Shown one piece after another: positions 4,603 through 26,556 of a stretch of 26,556 bases of DNA. The notes under the pieces were generated by a model that ran no database searches, had not been told where the DNA came from, and was given only the letters and a program-made list of their open reading frames with translations. The DNA is taken from IMG/VR virus record IMGVR_UViG_3300042388_000219, positions 1 through 26,556 of that record; one strand, written 5' to 3'. The stretch comes from a virus. The position numbers and the translations under genes are program-made. Within the stretch, counting starts at the first letter, position 1. Every line of letters starts with the position of its first letter.

Positions 4603-4678
4603 TCCTCAGTAGCTCAATCGGCTGAGCATCACGCTGTTAACGTGGGGGTTGTAGGTTCGAGTCCTACCTGGGGAGCCA
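4603..4678 (+). tRNA. tRNA-Asn (anticodon GTT)
   Basis: A complete 76-nt cloverleaf folds here. The acceptor stem is TCCTCAG (4603-4609) with CTGGGGA (4668-4674), one T-G wobble. The D stem is GCTC/GAGC with a GG in the loop. The anticodon stem TCACG/CGTGG encloses CTGTTAA, giving anticodon GTT (4636-4638). The variable loop has five bases, the T arm is GTAGG-TTCGAGT-CCTAC, the discriminator is G and the CCA is encoded (4676-4678). It would decode AAC/AAT. It lies 19 bases after one small gene and 12 before the next and is probably processed from the early transcript. Confidence 0.95.
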
Positions 4679-4690
4679 AATTAGAAACGT

Positions 4691-4957
4691 ATGACTGACA
4701 CGAAAGGTTACGGCTGCGGTATTTATCCCCTAATCATTAAAGATCCAGAGTTTGAAGAGGCTTGCGTGTGGCACGATAAAGCCTACAGCACGAATTCCTT
4801 TGCAGAGCACAATCTCTCAAGGCTCCGCACCGACCAACACTTTAGAGACATGATGCTCTATCGAGCAGGAGCAAGCCTAGTGCTACAAGCAAAAGCGTGG
4901 CTTTACTACTCAATGGCTAGAGCGTTTGGTGCTAAGTGGTGGGAAGGCAAGCTCTAG
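4691..4957 (+). CDS. Small protein with phospholipase A2-like HDxxY motif
   Basis: This 88-residue protein starts at ATG 4691, just after the tRNA; no clear ribosome-binding site is visible. Residues 6-13 read GYGCGIYP, residues 24-32 read ACVWHDKAY and residues 46-51 read RTDQHF. The layout (Gly-rich loop, then a helix with His-Asp and Tyr three residues on, then a second helix with an Asp) is that of secreted and parvovirus-type phospholipases A2 (HDxxY catalytic helix plus a supporting Asp). The C-terminus is an amphipathic helix rich in Trp and Tyr (AWLYYSMARAFGAKWW) that could lie on a membrane. Lipase activity is inferred only. It meets the opposite-strand gene in a CTAG stop overlap. 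Confidence 0.6.
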   Translation: MTDTKGYGCGIYPLIIKDPEFEEACVWHDKAYSTNSFAEHNLSRLRTDQHFRDMMLYRAGASLVLQAKAWLYYSMARAFGAKWWEGKL

Positions 4958-5184
4958 AAAGCCTTGTCTAGCTTGGCTTTAATGACTTTGTGAATCACTG
5001 CCACAAGCGCCGCTACGATTCCCGCCTTAGTAGGATTCGCTAGAACCATCTCAATTAGCAGCTTGAAATCTACGCCTGGCAAGATGTGCGGGATTTGAGC
5101 AATCAAGAGAAACAGCCCAGACAGTTTGAGCTTGTCACCGTTGAAAGGTAGTAACGCAAGGATCGCATCTATTTTCTTTAGCAT
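4954..5184 (-). CDS. Small membrane protein, possible holin-like
   Basis: This 76-residue protein starts at ATG 5184 with TAGGAGTG upstream. It has a charged N-terminus, a hydrophobic stretch at about 21-34 (LSGLFLLIAQIPHI), an amphipathic helix (FKLLIEMVLA), a second hydrophobic stretch at 54-68 (AGIVAALVAVIHKVI) and a basic tail (KAKLDKAF). Two short membrane helices with a basic C-terminus fit a small holin-like protein, and it follows the transglycosylase gene with only one other membrane protein between. No holin family is recognised with confidence. Its stop TAG overlaps the opposite-strand gene's TAG. Confidence 0.5.
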   Translation of the reverse strand: MLKKIDAILALLPFNGDKLKLSGLFLLIAQIPHILPGVDFKLLIEMVLANPTKAGIVAALVAVIHKVIKAKLDKAF

Positions 5185-5191
5185 AACACTC

Positions 5192-5524
5192 CTAATGGTT
5201 TAACGGTGCGATCCAGCCCATAGTTTCGCCGGTTAGCAGGAATACCAGCACGAACAAAAGTCCAAGAATTACGATGCCAGCGACACCGAATAGCCGCATG
5301 GCTAGTTTCCCATCGATTTGATGCCGACCAATTGCAGCGCTTAAAAGGCTGTCTTTTATATCCTTGAGGTAGTCGAGCTTTGAGAGGTGCGAAGTGTGCT
5401 CAAGAAAGATCGGGATCTTCGAGTGTATAACGTCGATTTTTTCCGCTGCATCTAGCACGATTTGCCTATGTTCATCCCACTCCTCACGAGTCATGGGGAG
5501 CTGGTAGCCGTTATTCTGTGACAC
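5192..5524 (-). CDS. Small single-pass membrane protein, unknown
   Basis: This 110-residue protein starts at GTG 5524, with GAGGTG just upstream inside the end of the transglycosylase gene and its stop two bases before. Residues 12-75 are a mostly helical soluble part (TREEWDEHRQIVLDAAEKI...LSKLDYLKDIKDSLL). Residues 78-98 form one strong membrane helix (LFGVAGIVILGLLFVLVFLL) near the C-terminus. The topology (helical domain plus late membrane anchor) is seen in several lysis accessory and membrane-remodelling phage proteins, but no family is identified. It is probably co-transcribed with the neighbouring small membrane protein, seven bases downstream. Confidence 0.5.
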   Translation of the reverse strand: MSQNNGYQLPMTREEWDEHRQIVLDAAEKIDVIHSKIPIFLEHTSHLSKLDYLKDIKDSLLSAAIGRHQIDGKLAMRLFGVAGIVILGLLFVLVFLLTGETMGWIAPLNH

Positions 5525-16603: not shown

Positions 16604-17302
16604 CTATGCTGATTCTTTCACGATGAGCCATACAACAGAGCCAGCCGTTGTATCGGTCGCGCCAGTAGAAGCAAACGTAAAGTTCGCTCCAGCCGGGGCA
16701 GTCGTGGTTGTAATCGTTCCCATGTTGGTGATTGCGCCAAGGCGAGAGTAGAAAACTCTAGCACCAGATACCGCGCATGAGGTCGTAACAGTCACGTTGG
16801 TATTACCGTTTGGAGTAGCCACGCCCATGCAAGCAGTCGCGCCCGTTGCCTCTTGCACTGAAATCGTATCGCCAGAGCCAGAGAAGATAAGACCGCCGCC
16901 GTTTGATGCGTTGCTGGTAAGGTCGCCAGTGTTTCCAGAGACTGACCAAACAGTGCCCGATCCGGTTGAGAATATGATATTGCTCGATGAATTGTTTACC
17001 GAGAAAGTCAGATTTCCTGTCGAAACGTTGCCTGCGTACATTTCGCATGCTCCGCCTACCGTTGCGACTTCGTTACCATAGCAACGCAATCCACCACCAC
17101 GGGAAGCCGCGAAAGCGCCGCCGCCAGTAAATGAGACTAGCCCATTATCGGCACCGTCATTTGTCTGCTGCTGCGTCATGCGCACTACTTCAACAGCTTG
17201 CTGAGCAGGCATGCCCACGCCCATAAGCGTGCTAGGCGTGACTTGAGCGAATACAGGCACCGCCCAAAGGAGCGCAGCCAATGTGATAATTATCTTTTTC
17301 AT
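16604..17302 (-). CDS. Exported beta-rich protein with Sec signal peptide and LxGxGxxxQQA motif
   Basis: This 232-residue protein starts at ATG 17302 in an ATGA overlap with the previous gene. Residues 1-19 (MKKIIITLAALLWAVPVFA) are a textbook signal peptide with cleavage before Gln20. The mature part begins with TPSTLMGVGMPAQQAVEV, sharing the LxGxGxxxQQA motif with the 15407-15781 protein. Then follows a Gly/Ser/Thr/Asn-rich, strand-repeat region typical of fibre or decoration proteins. Four cysteines (74, 86, 158, 176) could form disulfides in the periplasm. An exported protein inside a capsid/tail cassette is unusual. The function is unknown; a surface or periplasmic virion-like factor is inferred. 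Confidence 0.65.
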   Translation of the reverse strand: MKKIIITLAALLWAVPVFAQVTPSTLMGVGMPAQQAVEVVRMTQQQTNDGADNGLVSFTGGGAFAASRGGGLRCYGNEVATVGGACEMYAGNVSTGNLTFSVNNSSSNIIFSTGSGTVWSVSGNTGDLTSNASNGGGLIFSGSGDTISVQEATGATACMGVATPNGNTNVTVTTSCAVSGARVFYSRLGAITNMGTITTTTAPAGANFTFASTGATDTTAGSVVWLIVKESA

Positions 17303-18566: not shown

Positions 18567-19541
18567 TTAGTTATTGTTCAGCGTTCCAAGTCTGCGGAAG
18601 TTCTTCACAGTCAAGGCACCCATCCACGCTAGGTAGCTAATGGAAAGGTCCTGATTGAACGAATCCCGCTTAGGTAGCTGCACAAGGTTTCTGTCCGAGT
18701 GGCTCACAAGCTCCATAACTTCCGGATCAATCCAGTACTGAGTAGTGGAAGGCATACCAGAAGCAGTTGGCTCGAATACCATCTCTGCCGACTTGTAAGC
18801 GTAGGTGTTGAAACCAAGCTTTCCAAGCGCGCCCTTCTCTGCGTTAGTTAAACGCTGAAGAGGGTGAACAGCCGACTCATAAAGCCGGAACATGGTGTCG
18901 TCTGCGATAATTACCTTGGTCTTCCCACGGTAAGCCTGAATCCGAAGATCCAAGACATCCATGTAACCAGCGATATTAGCAGCAGTTACAGCCGCGCCGC
19001 CGTCAGTGGTGCATCTGTAGTACTGATTAGCCGCGAACGAGTAAGCAGCGCGAGACACGCCGCCGACAGTTCCTGAGCCAGTAGGAGATATCAGGGTCTG
19101 AAGTCCAACGATCTGATTGGTGGCTGCACCGTCAGAAAGGAGGTCAACATTGAACTGATTCTCAAAGGTATGCTTAGCGTTAACCACGCGGCTCTTGAGC
19201 AGATTGCGGTTTTGAGAACGTCCAGAATTCTGGAGCATCTCTTTACCGTTAATCTGAATCGCAAGAGCAACCTGAGACCATGGATACACGAAAGAGCTGA
19301 ACACTTCATTGAAAGTAGTGTTTAGAATCTCGGATCCAGAGTAACGCTTATACGAACCATTCTCTGCGTACTCGATAGGAACCACGATCTGCGGTCCACC
19401 GTCGCGAGTCCCTACTGCTCCGTAGCTTTTCAGCGTGGCAGTAAGCGCATTCTTGGTAAGAATATTATCAAACAATTCGTCTTCGAGGTCTTGCACCGTT
19501 GTGGAGAGTAACTCTCCGAACGAGCTATTAGGTGATGGCAT
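18567..19541 (-). CDS. Major capsid protein
   Basis: This 324-residue protein starts at ATG 19541 with TGGAGC upstream. The opening (FGELLSTTVQDLEDELFDNILTKNALTATLK) and then GGPQIVVPIEYAENGSYKRYSG, with SWSQVA-like FVYPWSQVALAIQI, fit the N-arm and E-loop of an HK97-fold coat protein. The later strand/helix pattern (RGKTKVIIADDTMFRLYESAVHP; YWIDPEVMELVSHSDRNLVQL; AWMGALTVKNFRRLGTL) fits its P and A domains. It lies immediately after the scaffold gene and before the decoration gene, the normal order. At 324 residues it is on the short side but within range for podovirus coats. Confidence 0.85.
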   Translation of the reverse strand: MPSPNSSFGELLSTTVQDLEDELFDNILTKNALTATLKSYGAVGTRDGGPQIVVPIEYAENGSYKRYSGSEILNTTFNEVFSSFVYPWSQVALAIQINGKEMLQNSGRSQNRNLLKSRVVNAKHTFENQFNVDLLSDGAATNQIVGLQTLISPTGSGTVGGVSRAAYSFAANQYYRCTTDGGAAVTAANIAGYMDVLDLRIQAYRGKTKVIIADDTMFRLYESAVHPLQRLTNAEKGALGKLGFNTYAYKSAEMVFEPTASGMPSTTQYWIDPEVMELVSHSDRNLVQLPKRDSFNQDLSISYLAWMGALTVKNFRRLGTLNNN

Positions 19542-19558: not shown

Positions 19559-20692
19559 TTAGAGCCCGACACGATCAAGACTTGCGTCGATCGCGTTGAG
19601 CAGTTTTTCGTCAAAGTCCTTTCCCTTGGCCTTTGGACGAGGAGCCACCTGCACGCCGTTTTTGGGCGCACCCGAAACTAGTTTTGCTGCCGCTTTCGCC
19701 TTGTTTACGTCAGTCGCCACCATTCTTGGCTGCGCTGCGCTCACCCCATGAAGATCACGGGTCCAGTGCAGAATCGCCTCATACGCATGATGAAGGCGAT
19801 CTGTCTCTGGCATGTCAGGCTGTAGGCGGGATATTTCCTTGAAGGCTTCGGAGATTTGTGGCTTGTACGCATCAAAGAAGTTAGCGCGGGTATTCCCGAA
19901 GGAATCCTTACCGCTCTTAAATGCTTCGATTGCTGCTACGCCTTGAGCCGTTTCTTGAGCTTCAAGTTTCTCTTGCAGCGCTTTCACGGTCTCTTCATGA
20001 GCCTGTAAGCGCTGGTAAGCTTCATCTAGTCTTGGATCGCTTGACTGCTGGTAACTCTCGTCCTGAAGGAGGTCTTGCGGTGTGAGCCCGTTTTTTTGCA
20101 TCAGGTCCAGGATTCCTAGCTTGGGATCGTTCTCAAAGATTTCATTCCATGCGAACAATCGCCCAATTGCATCCAGAGGATCTCGTACCCCATTGCTCTG
20201 AAATCGTAGGCGCTGAGGCTCAAAAAGCTCCTGCGCCTTGTTCAGAAAGGCTTTAGCCGGTTCAACTTCCCTCGCTTGCTTTCGGTCCCATTCGGCGCGC
20301 TGTGCCTCTCTGCGTGCGATCAATTCCTGAACCTCACGCGGTGCCTTGGCGAGCACTTGTTTTTCCTTGGGGTCCCACATGCCTGGAATCTCGACCGTGC
20401 CTTGGGGCTCTTGAGTTTCGAGGCTCTCACCCTGTACATCAGTCGATTCTGGCTCTGTTTCGCCCTGTGAAATCTGCTTTGCTTTTGCGGCTGCGTCTTT
20501 CTTTACGAACTTGCCGCTTTGGTCACGCGCTACTATCGCCTCTGCGGTCACGTCAGTTTCTGGGTCGTGCGACTCCTCAACAGGATCCTCGCTGCCCTCT
20601 GAGTGTAGAGGCGTGTCGTCAGCAGCATCTGAAAGCTTGGCTTCTGCTGAATCGAGCGCTTTTTCTATGAAATCGTTATCGTTTATAGCCAT
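19559..20692 (-). CDS. Scaffolding protein
   Basis: This 377-residue protein starts at ATG 20692, overlapping the preceding gene by 17 bases; no good ribosome-binding site is visible, so coupling is likely. The first ~100 residues are very acidic and probably disordered. A conserved phage-scaffold-like segment follows (GMWDPKEKQVLAKAPREVQE, LIARREAQRAEWDRKQ, then DPLDAIGRLFAWNEIF). A coiled coil lies near 210-250 (DPRLDEAYQRLQAHEETVKAL), and the basic C-terminus (APRPKAKGKDFDEKLLNAID) would bind the coat protein. The position directly before the capsid gene supports the call. It is probably removed from the head at maturation. Confidence 0.8.
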   Translation of the reverse strand: MAINDNDFIEKALDSAEAKLSDAADDTPLHSEGSEDPVEESHDPETDVTAEAIVARDQSGKFVKKDAAAKAKQISQGETEPESTDVQGESLETQEPQGTVEIPGMWDPKEKQVLAKAPREVQELIARREAQRAEWDRKQAREVEPAKAFLNKAQELFEPQRLRFQSNGVRDPLDAIGRLFAWNEIFENDPKLGILDLMQKNGLTPQDLLQDESYQQSSDPRLDEAYQRLQAHEETVKALQEKLEAQETAQGVAAIEAFKSGKDSFGNTRANFFDAYKPQISEAFKEISRLQPDMPETDRLHHAYEAILHWTRDLHGVSAAQPRMVATDVNKAKAAAKLVSGAPKNGVQVAPRPKAKGKDFDEKLLNAIDASLDRVGL

Positions 20693-21059
20693 TCAATAAT
20701 CGCGCGTTACGCTCGGCTAATTCGGCCTGTTGGTTGCGGTAGGCGTTACGCTTTGCAGGGTCGCTGTGTATCGCCTCTGCCCGCTCCATTGCCGTCTTAA
20801 TCCGATCTTCCGTTATGCGATCCTGAATGTTCCTTGGCTTCTGACTGAGAAGGTCATTGCCCACAACTTGCAGGTTGTGCTCTTTGTTTATCTGGTTCCA
20901 CCGCGTTTTGCTTTCCACCATTTCGCCCGTTACCGGGTGCTTTAGTGGTTTGCCGAAACTATCCTGATGAACTGCTGGAACTTCCGTCTTTGCTGGCTCA
21001 ACATTCAGCTCAATAAAGACTTTGTTTTCCTTGTCCCATCGGTACAGTTTCCGCGACAT
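20676..21059 (-). CDS. Small conserved phage protein upstream of scaffold
   Basis: This 127-residue protein starts at ATG 21059; the ribosome-binding site is weak (TTAGG almost touching the start). The sequence contains SFGKPLKHPVTGEMVESKTRWNQ and INKEHNLQVVGNDL. This follows a pattern I recognise in small podovirus proteins between portal and scaffold ('P..dp.tG...dSks.yre..K.hG..e.Gn'). Some of these have an FmdB-like zinc ribbon at the front, but no CxxC is present here. The C-terminus is a charged helix. The function is not known. Confidence 0.6.
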   Translation of the reverse strand: MSRKLYRWDKENKVFIELNVEPAKTEVPAVHQDSFGKPLKHPVTGEMVESKTRWNQINKEHNLQVVGNDLLSQKPRNIQDRITEDRIKTAMERAEAIHSDPAKRNAYRNQQAELAERNARLLNGYKR

Positions 21060-21112: not shown

Positions 21113-21442
21113 TTATGAATCTAACAGCAGCAGGAGTGCCGCCGCTTCTTCTTCATCCATCTCCACCACTTTCTTCAGCGCCTCAATTCGCTCAGCGTGC
21201 AACCTGTTCACTTCCTTCTTGTATTCCGCTTGGTAAGCATTGAAATCTGGCGCTGCTATTACTTCCGCAATTTTCCGGGAATTTTCCTGAACTTTCCCGA
21301 TTTTTTCCTCTAGTTCCCCGCTAAATTCTAATTGTATCGCATCTTCTTCTTCACGGCGTTTTTTCCACTTGCCACCGGGCAGGTGTTTAATGATGCCGTC
21401 AGCGTCAAAGAACTTAGGATTTAGGAGAAAAAAGAAGCTCAT
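21113..21442 (-). CDS. Small helical protein coupled to the metzincin gene
   Basis: This 109-residue protein starts at ATG 21442, which overlaps the protease stop (ATGA). The N-terminus is hydrophobic and aromatic (MSFFFLLNPKFFDADG) but too broken for a signal peptide. A basic patch (GGKWKKRREEE) is followed by two charged helices with heptad-like spacing (FSGELEEKIGKVQENSRKI; EYKKEVNRLHAERIEALKK) and an end EEEAAALLLLLDS. No family is recognised. Direct coupling to the secreted metalloprotease gene suggests a shared task, perhaps as inhibitor, chaperone or partner, but nothing in the sequence shows which. Confidence 0.55.
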   Translation of the reverse strand: MSFFFLLNPKFFDADGIIKHLPGGKWKKRREEEDAIQLEFSGELEEKIGKVQENSRKIAEVIAAPDFNAYQAEYKKEVNRLHAERIEALKKVVEMDEEEAAALLLLLDS

Positions 21443-22071
21443 CTAAAAGACCTGTAACACGATCGAAGCTGGTTAATATTCTGAGGGTCCCAAATAAAAC
21501 TAAGGTTGTTTGGTAGAAAACTAAGCGCCCCTTGATGCATCAAGGTTGGTGATTGCACATGGTACATGCCTAAAAGGTGCCCCATTTCGTGCGCAAGTAT
21601 GACGGTTGAGTGTTGCTGCCTTGGTAGCCCCGCATCGTTAAAATCGCGCATCTGCCCAATGGCAAGGCTTATGCGCTGACGTGGCGGCATGCAGTAACCT
21701 GAAGCGAGTCCAGCCATAGCATTCACACCATTGAAATTCATGGGTGACACAACATAGAACACAAAATCTACGTTGCGGCGCATGGTTCTATGAAGCGCTG
21801 AATCTCTAATTGCGTATAGCCGCCGTGCTGCGTCCTCGTACCTATCTAGGTTAGGCGCCGGGTCTTGCTTGTAGCGAATATCTTTAAGGCGTAAGAGCGG
21901 CACGCCGTGTGCTGCATGCAGTGCTACCGCCTCAGCTATCGCCGTCTGTACGGTAGCGGGTGAGACGTAGCCCTGCGCCCATTTAGGGCTGCTAAGCACC
22001 ACCACTCTGAAATCATAGGCGTGAGCTACTTGAGCCCAAAGAATGAACAATACCCCAAATATTGCGCGCAC
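21439..22071 (-). CDS. Secreted metzincin-type zinc metalloprotease
   Basis: This 210-residue protein starts at GTG 22071 with GGGG six to seven bases upstream. Residues 1-18 form a Sec signal peptide (MRAIFGVLFILWAQVAHA, cleavage after AHA). Residues 161-171 read HEMGHLLGMYH, the full metzincin zinc motif HExxHxxGxxH, with Glu162 as catalytic base. SPTLMHQ (174-180) provides the Met-turn at Met178, with the usual short spacing. The upstream DFVFYVVSP strand fits the edge-strand region of these enzymes. Only two Cys (127 and 205) are present, possibly paired. There is no propeptide cysteine switch, and the mature enzyme is minimal (about 192 residues). A secreted peptidase in the head cassette is unusual; substrates are unknown. 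Confidence 0.85.
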   Translation of the reverse strand: MRAIFGVLFILWAQVAHAYDFRVVVLSSPKWAQGYVSPATVQTAIAEAVALHAAHGVPLLRLKDIRYKQDPAPNLDRYEDAARRLYAIRDSALHRTMRRNVDFVFYVVSPMNFNGVNAMAGLASGYCMPPRQRISLAIGQMRDFNDAGLPRQQHSTVILAHEMGHLLGMYHVQSPTLMHQGALSFLPNNLSFIWDPQNINQLRSCYRSFR

Positions 22072-22115: not shown

Positions 22116-23687
22116 CTACGTTGTGGCTAGGTTAACAATACATCCATTAGCTGCCGGAGAGGTGTTGTCAGCATCAGCCACGCCAGTAGTGCAGCGAATT
22201 GAAAGGCCAGTACCAAAAAGGAACCCGATAACGCTTGAAGGGTTGTTCTCAGCTCCCGCCGCTATCGGATAAACAAGTGAAGGGGTATCAGCAGACGTTG
22301 CCGCTGTCGCCTTATTGTAGAGCTTTAGGTAAATCGTTGCTCCAGTCGTATTAAAAGCGGAGATATGCGAAAGATATGCGGCGCCAGCAGAGACCACCAC
22401 ACCGGTCGCATTCACATCAAGATTGCGGTAAGGGGTTGCTCCAGCTGTTTTTGAACCTGTAAGCGAGACAGCCCACGCGCCAGACTGCACAGCGGCGGTC
22501 CAGAGCCGTCCGAAAGAATCGCCGCGCAAAAGGAAGTAATCAAGATTAGCAGGGGTGAGCGTTGTTGGGGAATCTACGCGCTGAGCAAGGTTCGCAATTC
22601 CGGTGTCAGTAGCGCCGGGAATCGAGTCTATCGCCTTACCGAGGCTAGTTGCCGCAGTGCCCGGAACCACTGAGGTAATGGTAGTGCTGGCTAGCGTTAC
22701 TGCGTGAGAGGCAATCGCGGGAATAGGCTCCGTTGCTGAATACCCCGCGTTGATTTGAATATTAGCGGTTCCCGAGGTGTACGCCGTCGCACGCACACGG
22801 AAAGAATGTAATCCATTTACGGAAGCTTCCCACGCTCTTCTCGTGTTTGAGATTGTCCCGGATGCCGTCTCGATTGTGTTTGAGTCAAGCCGACACGCCT
22901 GAATTGTTAACCAGTTCGTGCCGTCAACCGTGCCTTCAAAGATGATAGCGACACTTCCGTAAGTACCGCCGATTTGAAAGACAACAGAGTTTTTCCCAGC
23001 CAACGCAACACTAACCGTTTGTCCGTTGGCGGTAATATTTCCAGTAGTAACAACTGGGTCTGCGTATGAAATATCTTGCTCGCCGCTTGGAATGTTGCGG
23101 GTTACTAGGCCGGGGTCGGAAGCTCCGGGAGTGCCAGTCGCAATGTATGCGGCGCGTGAATCGCTTGTGCTACTGGATAACGGACCCTGAATAAAGCTGC
23201 GCGTGACTAGCCCAGACGTACCCGCACCATTGGTTACTGTCGCGCTATCATTAAGAGCAATTATCTGAACTGGCTGCTGCGCGGCATCGTTGTATCCATA
23301 TACGCTTATATATGGGATCCCGTTTTCTGCTGCTGGCCAAGCTGCCCAAGCAGGATTACCTTCGAAAGGGGCAGCTTTTAAAACGCCTATGCCGGTGAAC
23401 TGCCCTTGACTTGTTTCGGTGCCATCCTTGGCCGTGTCTTGCTCAGTCGCGAGCACTACAGGAATGCTTGACGCCTCGGCCTTCTGCCCTAGGCTTGTGG
23501 CTACGCCGCCGAATTCAGCAAGGTTAATATCTTGCGTGGTTCCAGCAGTAGGAGTGCCGGAAGCATCGCAAGGGATTACCTTTTGAAAGCGCTTACCGTC
23601 AATTAGGCTAGATGCCACCGGGATACGCGGCAGCCCAGTATCTAGCGCACTATTGGCAACATCTACGCCATTTGCATCGTCGGTCAT
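22116..23687 (-). CDS. Beta-rich fibre-like virion protein
   Basis: This 523-residue protein starts at ATG 23687 in an ATGA overlap with the portal stop. The sequence is Thr/Ser/Ala/Gly-rich and strand-dominated. Residues about 225-320 contain VVFQIGGTYGSVAIIFEGTVDG, TNWLTIQACR and HSFRVRATAYTSGTANIQI. This pattern (GTyg.v.fEGT.DG.NW ... fRVRa..YtSGTa.v.i) is typical of fibre and receptor-binding domains. The C-terminal ~120 residues (LSHISAFNTTGATIYLKLYN; GFLFGTGLSIRCTTGVADAD) form a second domain found in phage appendage proteins. It is probably a head or tail fibre. An adhesin-like gene between portal and scaffold is not the most common arrangement. No chaperone is seen. Confidence 0.65.
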   Translation of the reverse strand: MTDDANGVDVANSALDTGLPRIPVASSLIDGKRFQKVIPCDASGTPTAGTTQDINLAEFGGVATSLGQKAEASSIPVVLATEQDTAKDGTETSQGQFTGIGVLKAAPFEGNPAWAAWPAAENGIPYISVYGYNDAAQQPVQIIALNDSATVTNGAGTSGLVTRSFIQGPLSSSTSDSRAAYIATGTPGASDPGLVTRNIPSGEQDISYADPVVTTGNITANGQTVSVALAGKNSVVFQIGGTYGSVAIIFEGTVDGTNWLTIQACRLDSNTIETASGTISNTRRAWEASVNGLHSFRVRATAYTSGTANIQINAGYSATEPIPAIASHAVTLASTTITSVVPGTAATSLGKAIDSIPGATDTGIANLAQRVDSPTTLTPANLDYFLLRGDSFGRLWTAAVQSGAWAVSLTGSKTAGATPYRNLDVNATGVVVSAGAAYLSHISAFNTTGATIYLKLYNKATAATSADTPSLVYPIAAGAENNPSSVIGFLFGTGLSIRCTTGVADADNTSPAANGCIVNLATT

Positions 23688-26077
23688 TCGTCAATGTCGC
23701 GGTGCTCCGCGCCTTCTATTTGACCGGTCATCCCGCGTACTACTTTTGAGACTCGCGCCTTGGGGCTAGGAATATGAACATTAACGATAGGGGCCTTTGC
23801 TTCACTTGCTGAGGTCTTCTGCGCGTCAGCTAACAGCCTTACCGTTTCAAGCTGCGTATCGCGTGCAAGGCGATTCTCTTCAATGAGCTTCTCACGCTCA
23901 TTTAGCATCGTTGCATACTTCTCAAGCTCAAGGCGCTGCTGCTCGGTGTATTGAACAAACTGCTCTTTGAACTGCTTCAGCTCTTGATCCATGCGGGCCG
24001 CTTCTTGCTTGCCCATCACGTCCTGCGCCTTGATTTGCAGCTCTTGCCCCTTCAGCTCTATTTCTTGGCTTAGCTTCCAGCTCTCAAATTGCAGCTGCTG
24101 TGATTTGAGCTGAAATTCCTGCTGCATCTCGGCTTGCTTAATCTGCGCGTCTTGCCCGAGCTTCATCTGCTCGTTTTGCACGCGCTGCGCGTCATTCTGC
24201 GCCGCCATCATTGCAGGGTCAGGGGGCGGGGGCTGTGGGTTTTGTTTGGCCTGAGCATCAGCATCCTCAATCTGCTGCATCGCACGCTCCCACGCTCCCT
24301 CAAGCTCTCTGCCGGTTCGGAAGGCTCTAGCTGCGAATAAGGCGGATTGTACTACAGGCTGCATCAGCTCAGGTCTATACTCAGAGATTCCTTGAATGCT
24401 CTGAATGAGGCTGGACATCGTGCCGAGGTACTCCATGCGGCGCGCTTGTTCCTCGTCTTCATCTGTCGCGATAGTGGAATCAGTTTCTATGTCCACCTTG
24501 AAAGTTCTTAAACGGTCATCTCTTAGCAGCGCCAAGGCTTCCGGGTACTGCGCTTGCTCGTCTTCTGGGAACTCGTAAGCGTTCACCATGAGCGCGATTG
24601 TCTCATCGCTGAACAGCCCAGGTTCAAAGGTGATTTGCGTGGCCTTGCTTATCAGCTCCTTACAAAAGCGCTGGACGTCAGCTTGCTTCTTTGCAGCCTT
24701 AAGCATGGTCCATTTAGACTTCCGCTGCACTGCTGCGGCTGTCTCGTTCGGATCTGTGCCGCCTCGCACAATGTCAGGAATTCCGGTAAGCGCGTCAATC
24801 TGAGTGATGAGGTTCTGCTGATGCTGCCAGAGTGGCCCGAGCGCGTTAACTGCCTGGTCGAACGGGAACCAGTTAATCGCACCAGCAAGGCCGCCCTTCT
24901 CCTGCATAAACTGCGCCCACTGCTTCACGGGCCATGTTTGACCGTCAGGTAAGCGGAGCATGCTCTTTAGGTCATCGCCCAGGGCTGAGGCGTGCATTCC
25001 TATCACTCGAATGCACTCAACCAGGCTGCTGATGCGCTTGGTCACGTAGTCTAGTTCTGACGCTAAGCGCTCGTAAATCTTGTAATCTGGTGTGGGGTAT
25101 AGTGTGTCAGTGGTAGTAGTTGCCATTAACGGCATTGGGCAAGGCCAGAAACCTTCAAGCTTCAGCGGGTCAGGAACTTGGTCAAGTGGTGCTTCTTTGT
25201 ATCCCTCTGATACCCATGTGACCATCTTGGTCGACATGTCCCATATCTCGAATATTTCAGCTTGTAAGACTAGCTCTGCCTCATCCTCGGTTAGCTTCTT
25301 CTTCCGCTTCTGTGTGGGGCTAGCTGTTAGTTCTACCTTGTGGCCCACTTCACCGAATCTTTGGCAAAGCTCCTTGCGATTCATGTAACTGCGGCGCGCT
25401 ACCCAGCGAACCTCATACCAATTGCGTGCAGATGAGTGGAAGAAATCGCACCAATGCACGTAGTCAAATATCACGCGCTCAGAGTTGGGCATTACCTGCT
25501 CTGGGGCTGCGGTGCTTTCTGCTGCATCCTCTGTGCCTTCTGCCTCTTCTTGCTCAAGCGTTTCTGTCTTCTCGTAGCTCTCGCCTAGCTCATTGCCAGA
25601 GGTTTTATCGTTGTCTGAGTTGGTGCCAAAATCTGCATCGTAGCGCACCCACGCAACACCGCGTCCAGGGAGCAGCCGATCTTCTACGGCTGCATCCATC
25701 ACATAATTGAAGCGGTCCTCTTGGCTGGAGATATGAAAGCTTGCAGCGCGCTCAGCAATCTTGCACGCTAAGCGCCCTATGGGGTCAGCGTCCTTGTGTC
25801 TGCGCTGAACTACTGGGTTGGGTGTTCTCGCGTATAGTAAAGGCTTTTGGATCTGAACATTGCTCCACAACACGTTATACATAACGCGGGAGGCTGGGAG
25901 ATTTGACGTGCCTGTGTCGTTTAGGCTGGAGGCGTTGCGATACTCTTTAACAATGCGCTCGCCGTTACGCTCAAAGCGTTCTTGCTCGTTGCTGTCGCGT
26001 ACATGCGACAACTCTTTAAGCCACTTAAGCACTACCCCTTCAGGGGTATTAGCCTTTACTTGCTTCTTGTCTTGCAT
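23684..26077 (-). CDS. Portal protein, P22-like
   Basis: This 797-residue protein starts at ATG 26077. The front matches P22-type portals: MYNVLWSNVQIQKPLLYART, then helices around RFNYVMDAAVEDRLLPGRGVAWVRYD. Residues about 200-330 hold the wing region (VIFDYVHWCDFFHSSARNW). The stem and crown helices include GIPDIVRGGTDPNETAAAVQ. The last ~180 residues (from about 615) are a Gln-rich coiled coil after PQPPPPDPAMMAAQ, as in the long alpha-helical barrel that extends into the head. Function: the dodecameric portal through which DNA is packaged and ejected. The gene follows terminase and precedes the head genes. The start lies directly after a hairpin that holds its AAGG site in the loop. Confidence 0.9.
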   Translation of the reverse strand: MQDKKQVKANTPEGVVLKWLKELSHVRDSNEQERFERNGERIVKEYRNASSLNDTGTSNLPASRVMYNVLWSNVQIQKPLLYARTPNPVVQRRHKDADPIGRLACKIAERAASFHISSQEDRFNYVMDAAVEDRLLPGRGVAWVRYDADFGTNSDNDKTSGNELGESYEKTETLEQEEAEGTEDAAESTAAPEQVMPNSERVIFDYVHWCDFFHSSARNWYEVRWVARRSYMNRKELCQRFGEVGHKVELTASPTQKRKKKLTEDEAELVLQAEIFEIWDMSTKMVTWVSEGYKEAPLDQVPDPLKLEGFWPCPMPLMATTTTDTLYPTPDYKIYERLASELDYVTKRISSLVECIRVIGMHASALGDDLKSMLRLPDGQTWPVKQWAQFMQEKGGLAGAINWFPFDQAVNALGPLWQHQQNLITQIDALTGIPDIVRGGTDPNETAAAVQRKSKWTMLKAAKKQADVQRFCKELISKATQITFEPGLFSDETIALMVNAYEFPEDEQAQYPEALALLRDDRLRTFKVDIETDSTIATDEDEEQARRMEYLGTMSSLIQSIQGISEYRPELMQPVVQSALFAARAFRTGRELEGAWERAMQQIEDADAQAKQNPQPPPPDPAMMAAQNDAQRVQNEQMKLGQDAQIKQAEMQQEFQLKSQQLQFESWKLSQEIELKGQELQIKAQDVMGKQEAARMDQELKQFKEQFVQYTEQQRLELEKYATMLNEREKLIEENRLARDTQLETVRLLADAQKTSASEAKAPIVNVHIPSPKARVSKVVRGMTGQIEGAEHRDIDE

Positions 26078-26124: not shown

Positions 26125-26556
26125 TTAGATGCGCTCTCTGTTTCGTTCTGTGTGAAGCGCCCAAAGTTCATCAATTGTAGGTTGTTTAAACGCCTTTTCC
26201 AAGGGGATTTCAGCGGGTGGCTTGTCAGTCACCCAGGGACGAGACATCAACGCATAACGACACATTTCATAAAAATGGTCGTCAGCTTGCGTGCAGTCTG
26301 TAGGGTTGTTCAGGTCATGCTGTAGGTTCATCACGGTTTCTAGTTCAAGCTCGCACTCGTCAAACCAGTAAATATCGGGCCTACCGTTCTTGCCTACGAT
26401 GCACTCTCTGAACTGTATCGCGCCCATGACGCGCCTTTGGTCTGCGGTTTGAAAGTGTAACCCGTGCCGCCCGAATAGCTCTTTAAGACTTGGCCCAGTG
26501 CCGCGCTCCTGGCCTATGTCGCCACCTGCTACGCGGTAGATAATAGGGGGGTCTTT
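26125..26556 (-). CDS. terL: Terminase large subunit, C-terminal nuclease part
   Basis: This frame is open from the right edge of the window (26556) to the TAA at 26125-26127, giving 143 residues of a longer protein. An ATG at 26427 is internal and is not the start. The visible part begins IYRVAGGDIGQERGTGP and has RECIVGKNGRPDIYWFDEC, then LNNPTDCTQADDHFYEMCRYALMSRPW. The Asp-Asp-His stretch followed by RYALMSRP is the signature C-terminal end of large terminase nuclease domains (RNase H-like), where the third metal ligand lies. Family role: ATP-driven packaging of DNA into the head through the portal and cutting of the concatemer. The ATPase half is outside the window. Confidence 0.85.
   Translation of the reverse strand, partial: KDPPIIYRVAGGDIGQERGTGPSLKELFGRHGLHFQTADQRRVMGAIQFRECIVGKNGRPDIYWFDECELELETVMNLQHDLNNPTDCTQADDHFYEMCRYALMSRPWVTDKPPAEIPLEKAFKQPTIDELWALHTERNRERI

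Follow-up and report, generated by a model that had tools for sequence, protein, structure and literature searches.

A predicted secreted metzincin in an exchangeable cargo slot of an environmental phage, with a possible role in attack on the host envelope

Accounts of phage lysis in diderm cells are framed around membrane pores, murein hydrolases, and spanins. In Listeria, cells are made sensitive to phage lysins by the phage-derived metzincin Mtz together with Tim, and Mtz is encoded downstream of holin-lysin in prophages (PMC8235301). As described for Listeria monocytogenes (LMRG_00713), Mtz is the product of a phage-borne accessory gene and combines a Sec-type signal peptide with an HExxHxxGxxH motif and a Met-turn; its host is Gram-positive, and its partner is a Tim lipoprotein or a secreted Tim. 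Other systems comparable with the protein described here include the M12B reprolysins/adamalysins of venoms and ADAM proteins, fragilysin of Bacteroides fragilis, which has a large N-terminal prodomain, and the Zn-dependent protease of Lactobacillus phage 3-521 (A0A4Y5FGF2), also from a Gram-positive host.

The locus considered here lies in a 26,556-nt IMG/VR virus record (IMGVR_UViG_3300042388_000219), the whole of which is referred to as the window. One of its genes (Table 1) encodes a small protein whose nearest precedent is the Mtz-Tim pair; it shares with Mtz a Sec-type signal peptide, here a predicted one, the zinc motif and Met-turn, and the status of a phage-borne accessory gene product. 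It differs in that no Tim-like partner adjoins it, the 523-aa fibre-like and 109-aa acidic neighbours being without a called signal peptide, and in that Mtz lies beside holin-lysin genes whereas the window copy is not beside the putative lysis genes of the window; only the relatives in G003 and G057 adjoin putative lysis transmembrane (TM) genes. By analogy, the window protein may at most work like Mtz.

The GTG-started gene proposed in the original prediction is real and is the only ORF of the window containing HExxH, and both HEMGHLLGMYH and the Met-turn SPTLM are present in its translation. The N-terminus reads MRAIFGVLFILWAQVAHA^YDFRVVVL..., and a crude caller recognised it as a Sec signal peptide, in agreement with the export signal that had been claimed. 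As the mature chain starts at the first strand of the catalytic domain, the protein has no propeptide, nor is a targeting domain fused to this bare catalytic domain. The zinc ligands H161, E162, H165, and H171 are invariant in an alignment of 11 members, the three His and the Glu being kept in homologues at ~20-36% identity, while the gap between the third His and the Met is short (6 residues) and matrixin-like. A pair of cysteines 71-85 residues apart (127 and 205 in the window protein) is found in 10 of the 16 members, which fits a disulfide and therefore the export of the protein. Adamalysin II has a similarly spaced disulfide, Cys117-Cys197.

Table 1. Positions of the metzincin gene, its sequence features, and neighbouring or related genes in the window.
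Feature	Position	Strand	Basis
76-aa one-TM gene, candidate lysis partner	4954..5184	minus	hydropathy
110-aa one-TM gene after SLT protein	5192..5524	minus	hydropathy; counterpart by position of the gene preceding the G003 metzincin
Major capsid protein	18567..19541	minus	NF033394 E 1.5e-66; phrog_9953
Scaffold-like protein	19559..20692	minus	position and clade conservation
127-aa conserved gene (cl4), borders the empty slot in relatives	20676..21059	minus	clade comparison
109-aa acidic protein 'MSFFFLLNPKFF', conserved lower slot border in four phages	21113..21442	minus	cluster 15
ATGA stop/start overlap, metzincin gene/109-aa gene	21439..21442	minus	sequence
Metzincin gene (P0001), 210 aa, GTG start	21439..22071	minus	ORF, sub-threshold Pfam, AF2 and PDB fold matches
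Cys205, proposed disulfide partner, C-terminal helix	21457..21459	minus	pair spacing kept across members
Met178, Met-turn SPTLM	21538..21540	minus	translation; at least 90% conserved in alignment of 11 members
Zinc-binding motif HEMGHLLGMYH, residues 161-171	21559..21591	minus	translation
Cys127, proposed disulfide partner of Cys205	21691..21693	minus	pair spacing kept across members
Predicted Sec-type signal peptide, residues 1-18, cleavage AHA^YDF	22018..22071	minus	crude signal-peptide caller and sequence
Fibre-like protein, 523 aa, first gene of cargo slot	22116..23687	minus	similarity to G062 protein
Portal protein, upper slot border	23684..26077	minus	phrog_12082 E 8.6e-152
Large terminase, C-terminal part (window ends inside)	26125..26556	minus	cluster 9; full gene in twin L031 7384-8892

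Pfam matches of the window protein all fell under curated cut-offs, namely Reprolysin_5 (E 2e-4; 22.1 vs 27) and Reprolysin_3 (E 5e-4; 21 vs 22.4) for M12B, and Peptidase_M10 (E 5e-4; 20.4 vs 24, active-site stretch only) for the matrixins; having missed the cut-offs of both families, it is filed under neither M12B nor M10. Homologues from G003, G057, and L203 do pass curated M12B-type models, that of G003 scoring above the Reprolysin_3 cut-off, and a PHROGs search with the metzincin returned no match. A first AF2 model based on six homologues (pLDDT 73, pTM 0.74) matched venom metalloproteinases, fragilysin, and ADAM catalytic domains in Foldseek, with E from 1.2e-7, and reached VIA Z values of 15-16.6 over 170-189 residues against metzincins. 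The second, based on 11 homologues (pLDDT 79, pTM 0.78), had a higher pLDDT but a weaker Foldseek E (5.7e-5 vs 1.2e-7) and VIA Z values of 11.5-14.5 against the same group; both models identify metzincins.

The comparison with reprolysins and matrixins envisaged in the original prediction thus returned adamalysin/ADAM metzincins over the whole domain, and the description of a complete minimal metzincin agrees with the motif, the Met-turn, and the fold predicted by both models. By these three features, the window protein is a member of the metzincin clan. The assignment is not attributable to chance, because motif and predicted fold agree, Pfam, Foldseek, and VIA all give matches, and the ligands are kept in the homologues. 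With M12B the protein has in common the predicted fold (VIA Z 14-16), the zinc motif, and the cysteine spacing, but it differs in its low identity (~11-18%), the missing propeptide, and the short His-Met gap. Fragilysin gave the best PDB sequence matches (phmmer E 0.06), and was among the top Foldseek matches, although the likeness in sequence lies mostly in the active-site region and the prodomain has no counterpart in the window protein. The phage 3-521 protease has a similar predicted fold (E 1.1e-4) at 12% identity.

The gene starts ~45 bp past the fibre-like gene. A recently acquired moron with its own promoter was considered and found to be unsupported, since codon usage is that of the operon (z 0.37) and no promoter-like site precedes the gene, such sites being fewer overall than in shuffles. 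The order portal, cl4, scaffold, and capsid is fixed across the clade of the window, and what varies is the slot between portal and cl4: it is empty in G004, G007, and L087, is filled by two to four genes of other cargo with no metzincin in G002, G003, G006, and G008, and holds the fibre-like gene and the metzincin in the window. Contents elsewhere in the clade include fibre-like genes, a GT4 glycosyltransferase (G003), and two signal-peptide proteins (G002). A related head cassette with the protease does exist: the slot of G005 holds a metzincin gene that likewise overlaps the following gene by 4 bp (GTGA; L027 539-542), on a contig that begins inside the slot region and leaves the preceding gene unseen.

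Judged from these gene orders, the portal-scaffold junction is an exchangeable cargo slot, and location there is no evidence for a head function; membership of a head operon does not by itself make a gene a part of the head machinery. A head role for the metzincin is unlikely, because the slot is variable and most homologues sit elsewhere in their phages. The protease had been called an odd cargo for a head operon, placed between a fibre-like gene and the scaffold region. Cargo is an apt term, the slot being empty or otherwise filled in relatives, whereas a part in the head is not borne out; likewise, the fibre-like neighbour stands, but the 109-aa acidic gene adjoins on the other side and the scaffold lies two genes on.

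An identical metzincin, the only close copy, is present in a longer twin contig (L031), and nine other contigs carry capsid proteins 63-69% identical to that of the window. The portal and capsid proteins are podovirus-type, and the distant isolates with similar proteins (Mx8/Mx9, Stenotrophomonas and Bradyrhizobium phages) suggest that the host is a diderm. The tyrosine integrase (PF00589) encoded with RecT in the twin contig makes a temperate life plausible. The sole genome-contig match was L087, a possibly mis-binned MAG with the label Actinomycetes, in which a profile search found no metzincin; profile A6 found none in 45 further records of distant terminase relatives, and a second capsid scan gave no further loci. 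All relatives are metagenomic contigs, many of them incomplete, and absence from a contig is weak evidence.

These phages show several other features. Fibre-type genes of the late region, after the capsid gene, have textbook Sec signal peptides throughout the clade, e.g. MKKIIITLAALLWAVPVFA^Q, the loci being window 16604-17302 (minus strand), L008 12283-12615, L027 4629-5489, L014 13140-13844, and L034 5748-7316; the end of the window protein weakly matches a K1-lyase C-terminal domain (E 1e-4). An 88-aa protein (CGIYPLI...CVWHDKAY), weakly phospholipase A2-like (PF09056 E 0.005), is encoded at 4691-4957 on the plus strand of the window, adjoining a tRNA-Asn (4603-4678), with other copies at L029 12562-12828 and L239 5687-6004; the protein is 85% identical in G062. 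Small lipoproteins (GCxGxExGGK...) recur (L031 15967-16182; L241 8631-8831; L219 4881-5087; L239 12355-12591), not adjacent to the metzincin, and might be outer spanins or envelope partners. A conserved family of 326-348 aa (..YGLDYLGLxK...GWAAGCFANTFG), with no Pfam or PHROG match, is found at L031 10065-11111, L008 198-1172, L219 8564-9154, and L241 97-1077, and directly follows the metzincin in L219 and L212. Large terminase genes are oversized (~810-820 aa vs ~500) at L203 246-2705 (minus), L087 2246-4717 (plus), and L029 7524-9959 (minus), with intein-like insertions in those of L203 and L087 (CVAIGTRLRMADGSFKPIEAIEVGEY..., CLDGDTLIETDTGIKAIKT...VVHNC) and probably a similar one in L029.

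Two motif scans of IMG/VR added to the homologues of the metzincin, and counts refer to the matches listed. Divergent homologues (~20-36% identity) occur in at least 12, about 14, distinct environmental phages, the scans having added at least L203, L176/G062, L103, L128, L188, L212/L219 and near copies, L225/G060, L232, and L224/G057. Their addresses, assigned from gene order with several neighbouring genes lacking annotation, are of four kinds: the slot itself, a site ahead of the terminase genes, the early part of the genome, and the fibre/lysis end of the late region, with an early or replication-region address in nine of the 16 members compared. The metzincin lies two small genes upstream of the small terminase in G006, overlaps the start of the large terminase in L203, and is in the early region in G007 and G010. 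Signal peptides were called by a simple rule in the window, G003, and G006, and are visible in L203, L176, and G057; the short members G005, G007, and G010 have a hydrophobic N-terminus in which a cleavage site was not called, and in G006 and G010 the third zinc ligand is preceded by one additional residue.

The G003 homologue (28% identical) follows an SLT protein and a 90-aa one-TM gene, and at the matching address G002 has a one-TM gene of its own and, after it, a 182-aa lytic transglycosylase (PF01464, 72.6 bits). The closest homologue among the matches listed is that of G057 (34%, E 7e-29), a phage that differs in lineage from the window by both its portal (phrog_156) and its capsid (phrog_14242); its gene order is a fibre-like gene (458 aa), a 319-aa gene, the metzincin, an 85-aa gene with a hydrophobic stretch, weakly similar to a one-TM gene in G062, and a 75-aa gene. 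G062 has a PF00959 endolysin and, after it, a fibre-like gene, a gene for a 141-aa protein, one for a GT4 enzyme, and finally two small genes whose products contain hydrophobic stretches. Since the fibre-like protein of the window is, at residues 38-236, 57% identical over 202 residues to the 396-aa one of G062, contents of the window slot do occur near lysis genes in other phages.

In the metzincin tree, the window, G005, and G057 form a group (94/95), most forks being weak. The best tree requires at least six address changes, and clustering by address was no better than with shuffled labels (63 of 200 as low); in a wider set, 11 family rows need two label changes, a value as low being reached by none of 500 shuffles. 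Searches by tblastn found no match in 50,697 phage isolate records (P0001, G003, G006, and G010 proteins) or 72,556 plasmid records (P0001 and G003 proteins), such direct searches missing very distant relatives, as with the Lactobacillus phage 3-521 protein. Separately, an IMG/VR pattern scan (loci L088-L205) gave at least 116 AHExxHxxGxxH frames, many of them short and with a signal peptide, on unrelated viral contigs, some of which may include host DNA; the frequency of small secreted metzincins in environmental phages may be higher than one would judge from isolates.

Taken with the gene orders, the protein may best be read as an exported, exchangeable cargo that would cleave host envelope proteins, with lysis or progeny release as the likelier payoff, a reading we hold tentatively and at a little under even odds. 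Among the three roles originally suggested (action on periplasmic host proteins, loosening of the envelope before lysis, and action on extracellular matrix), loosening of the envelope is the likelier. It is ranked first on account of the putative lysis genes that adjoin the metzincin in G003 and G057, the G002 transglycosylase at the matching address, and the Listeria precedent (PMC8235301); the signal peptides, the cysteine pair, the predicted fold, the variable or empty slot, and the slot-type cargo of G062, enclosed by an endolysin and a TM pair, are consistent with it. Poorer agreement with a late lysis role comes from the nine members at early or replication addresses, and the reading is further weakened by the distance of the window copy from putative lysis genes, the lack of an adjoining Tim-like lipoprotein, and the irregular members noted above, with no called cleavage site or with the extra residue. 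The one-TM genes also gave no lysis match in PHROGs, the two in the window having no PHROG at all. The early addresses fit better with receptor removal or superinfection exclusion, in which the exported protease would clip outer-membrane or surface proteins and block other phages or the re-adsorption of progeny, acting in a lysogen as a conversion gene. This is doubtful as the main role, given that two late addresses adjoin putative lysis genes and that GT4 enzymes in phages can have other uses. It is nevertheless placed directly behind lysis because fibre-like genes and a GT4 enzyme take the place of the metzincin as cargo and early addresses account for nine of the 16 members: the metzincin follows fibre-like genes in the window and G057, the matching cargo next to such genes in G003 and G062 is a GT4 glycosyltransferase, a potential surface modifier, and the integrase of the twin contig fits a temperate life.

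The remaining explanations appear much less probable. Metzincins are often secreted, and the late region of the clade encodes further signal-peptide proteins, such as that at 16604-17302 of the window, so the enzyme could be imagined to digest, after release or secretion, the matrix of biofilms, layers on host surfaces, or proteins belonging to predators or competitors; with no outer-membrane carrier visible and no targeting domain fused to the bare catalytic domain, we consider this improbable. Slightly less weight still is given to defence or counter-defence, by inactivation of a host factor in the periplasm or at the surface and unconnected with lysis and adsorption, which would suit a cargo-like, patchy, and mobile gene with early addresses in many phages but has no link to a known defence target. 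A protease of the head or virion, active in capsid maturation or ejected, is very hard to credit: it would explain the position between portal and scaffold and the stop codon overlapping the start of the neighbouring gene, but not the signal peptide and the cysteine pair, the absence from the head slot of G002, G003, G004, G006, G007, G008, and L087, or the unrelated addresses elsewhere. A prohead protease or virion protein is also rejected because of the missing PHROG match, with the metzincin fold, the signal peptide, and the other addresses instead.

Sequence and computation establish the gene, its motif, the conserved cysteine pair, the recurrence in other phages, and the behaviour of the slot, with fold and signal peptide as predictions. 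For the preferred role in lysis or release, we infer export, which is almost certain, along with activity, a periplasmic site, and late timing. The cargo gene would ride in whichever operon gives useful expression; in the window, where no promoter of its own was found, it would be read through from the late operon, and the protease would be made while virions mature. The host Sec system would export the propeptide-less endopeptidase, which would fold in the periplasm with one disulfide and no latency step and would then cut host envelope proteins. Cutting of envelope or lipoprotein ties would let murein digestion open the cell, and the protease might also strip surface proteins that would trap new virions.

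More broadly, it is possible, and proposed here with reserve, that in environmental tailed phages, probably of diderms, an exported reprolysin-like protease serves as an interchangeable envelope-attack module exchanged between capsid lineages. If so, such a module would add a proteolytic lysis step, or receptor shaving, to holin, endolysin, and spanin, and an exported protease recurring in phages would bring to the known means of lysis either proteolysis of the envelope or a kind of exclusion that relies on a protease.
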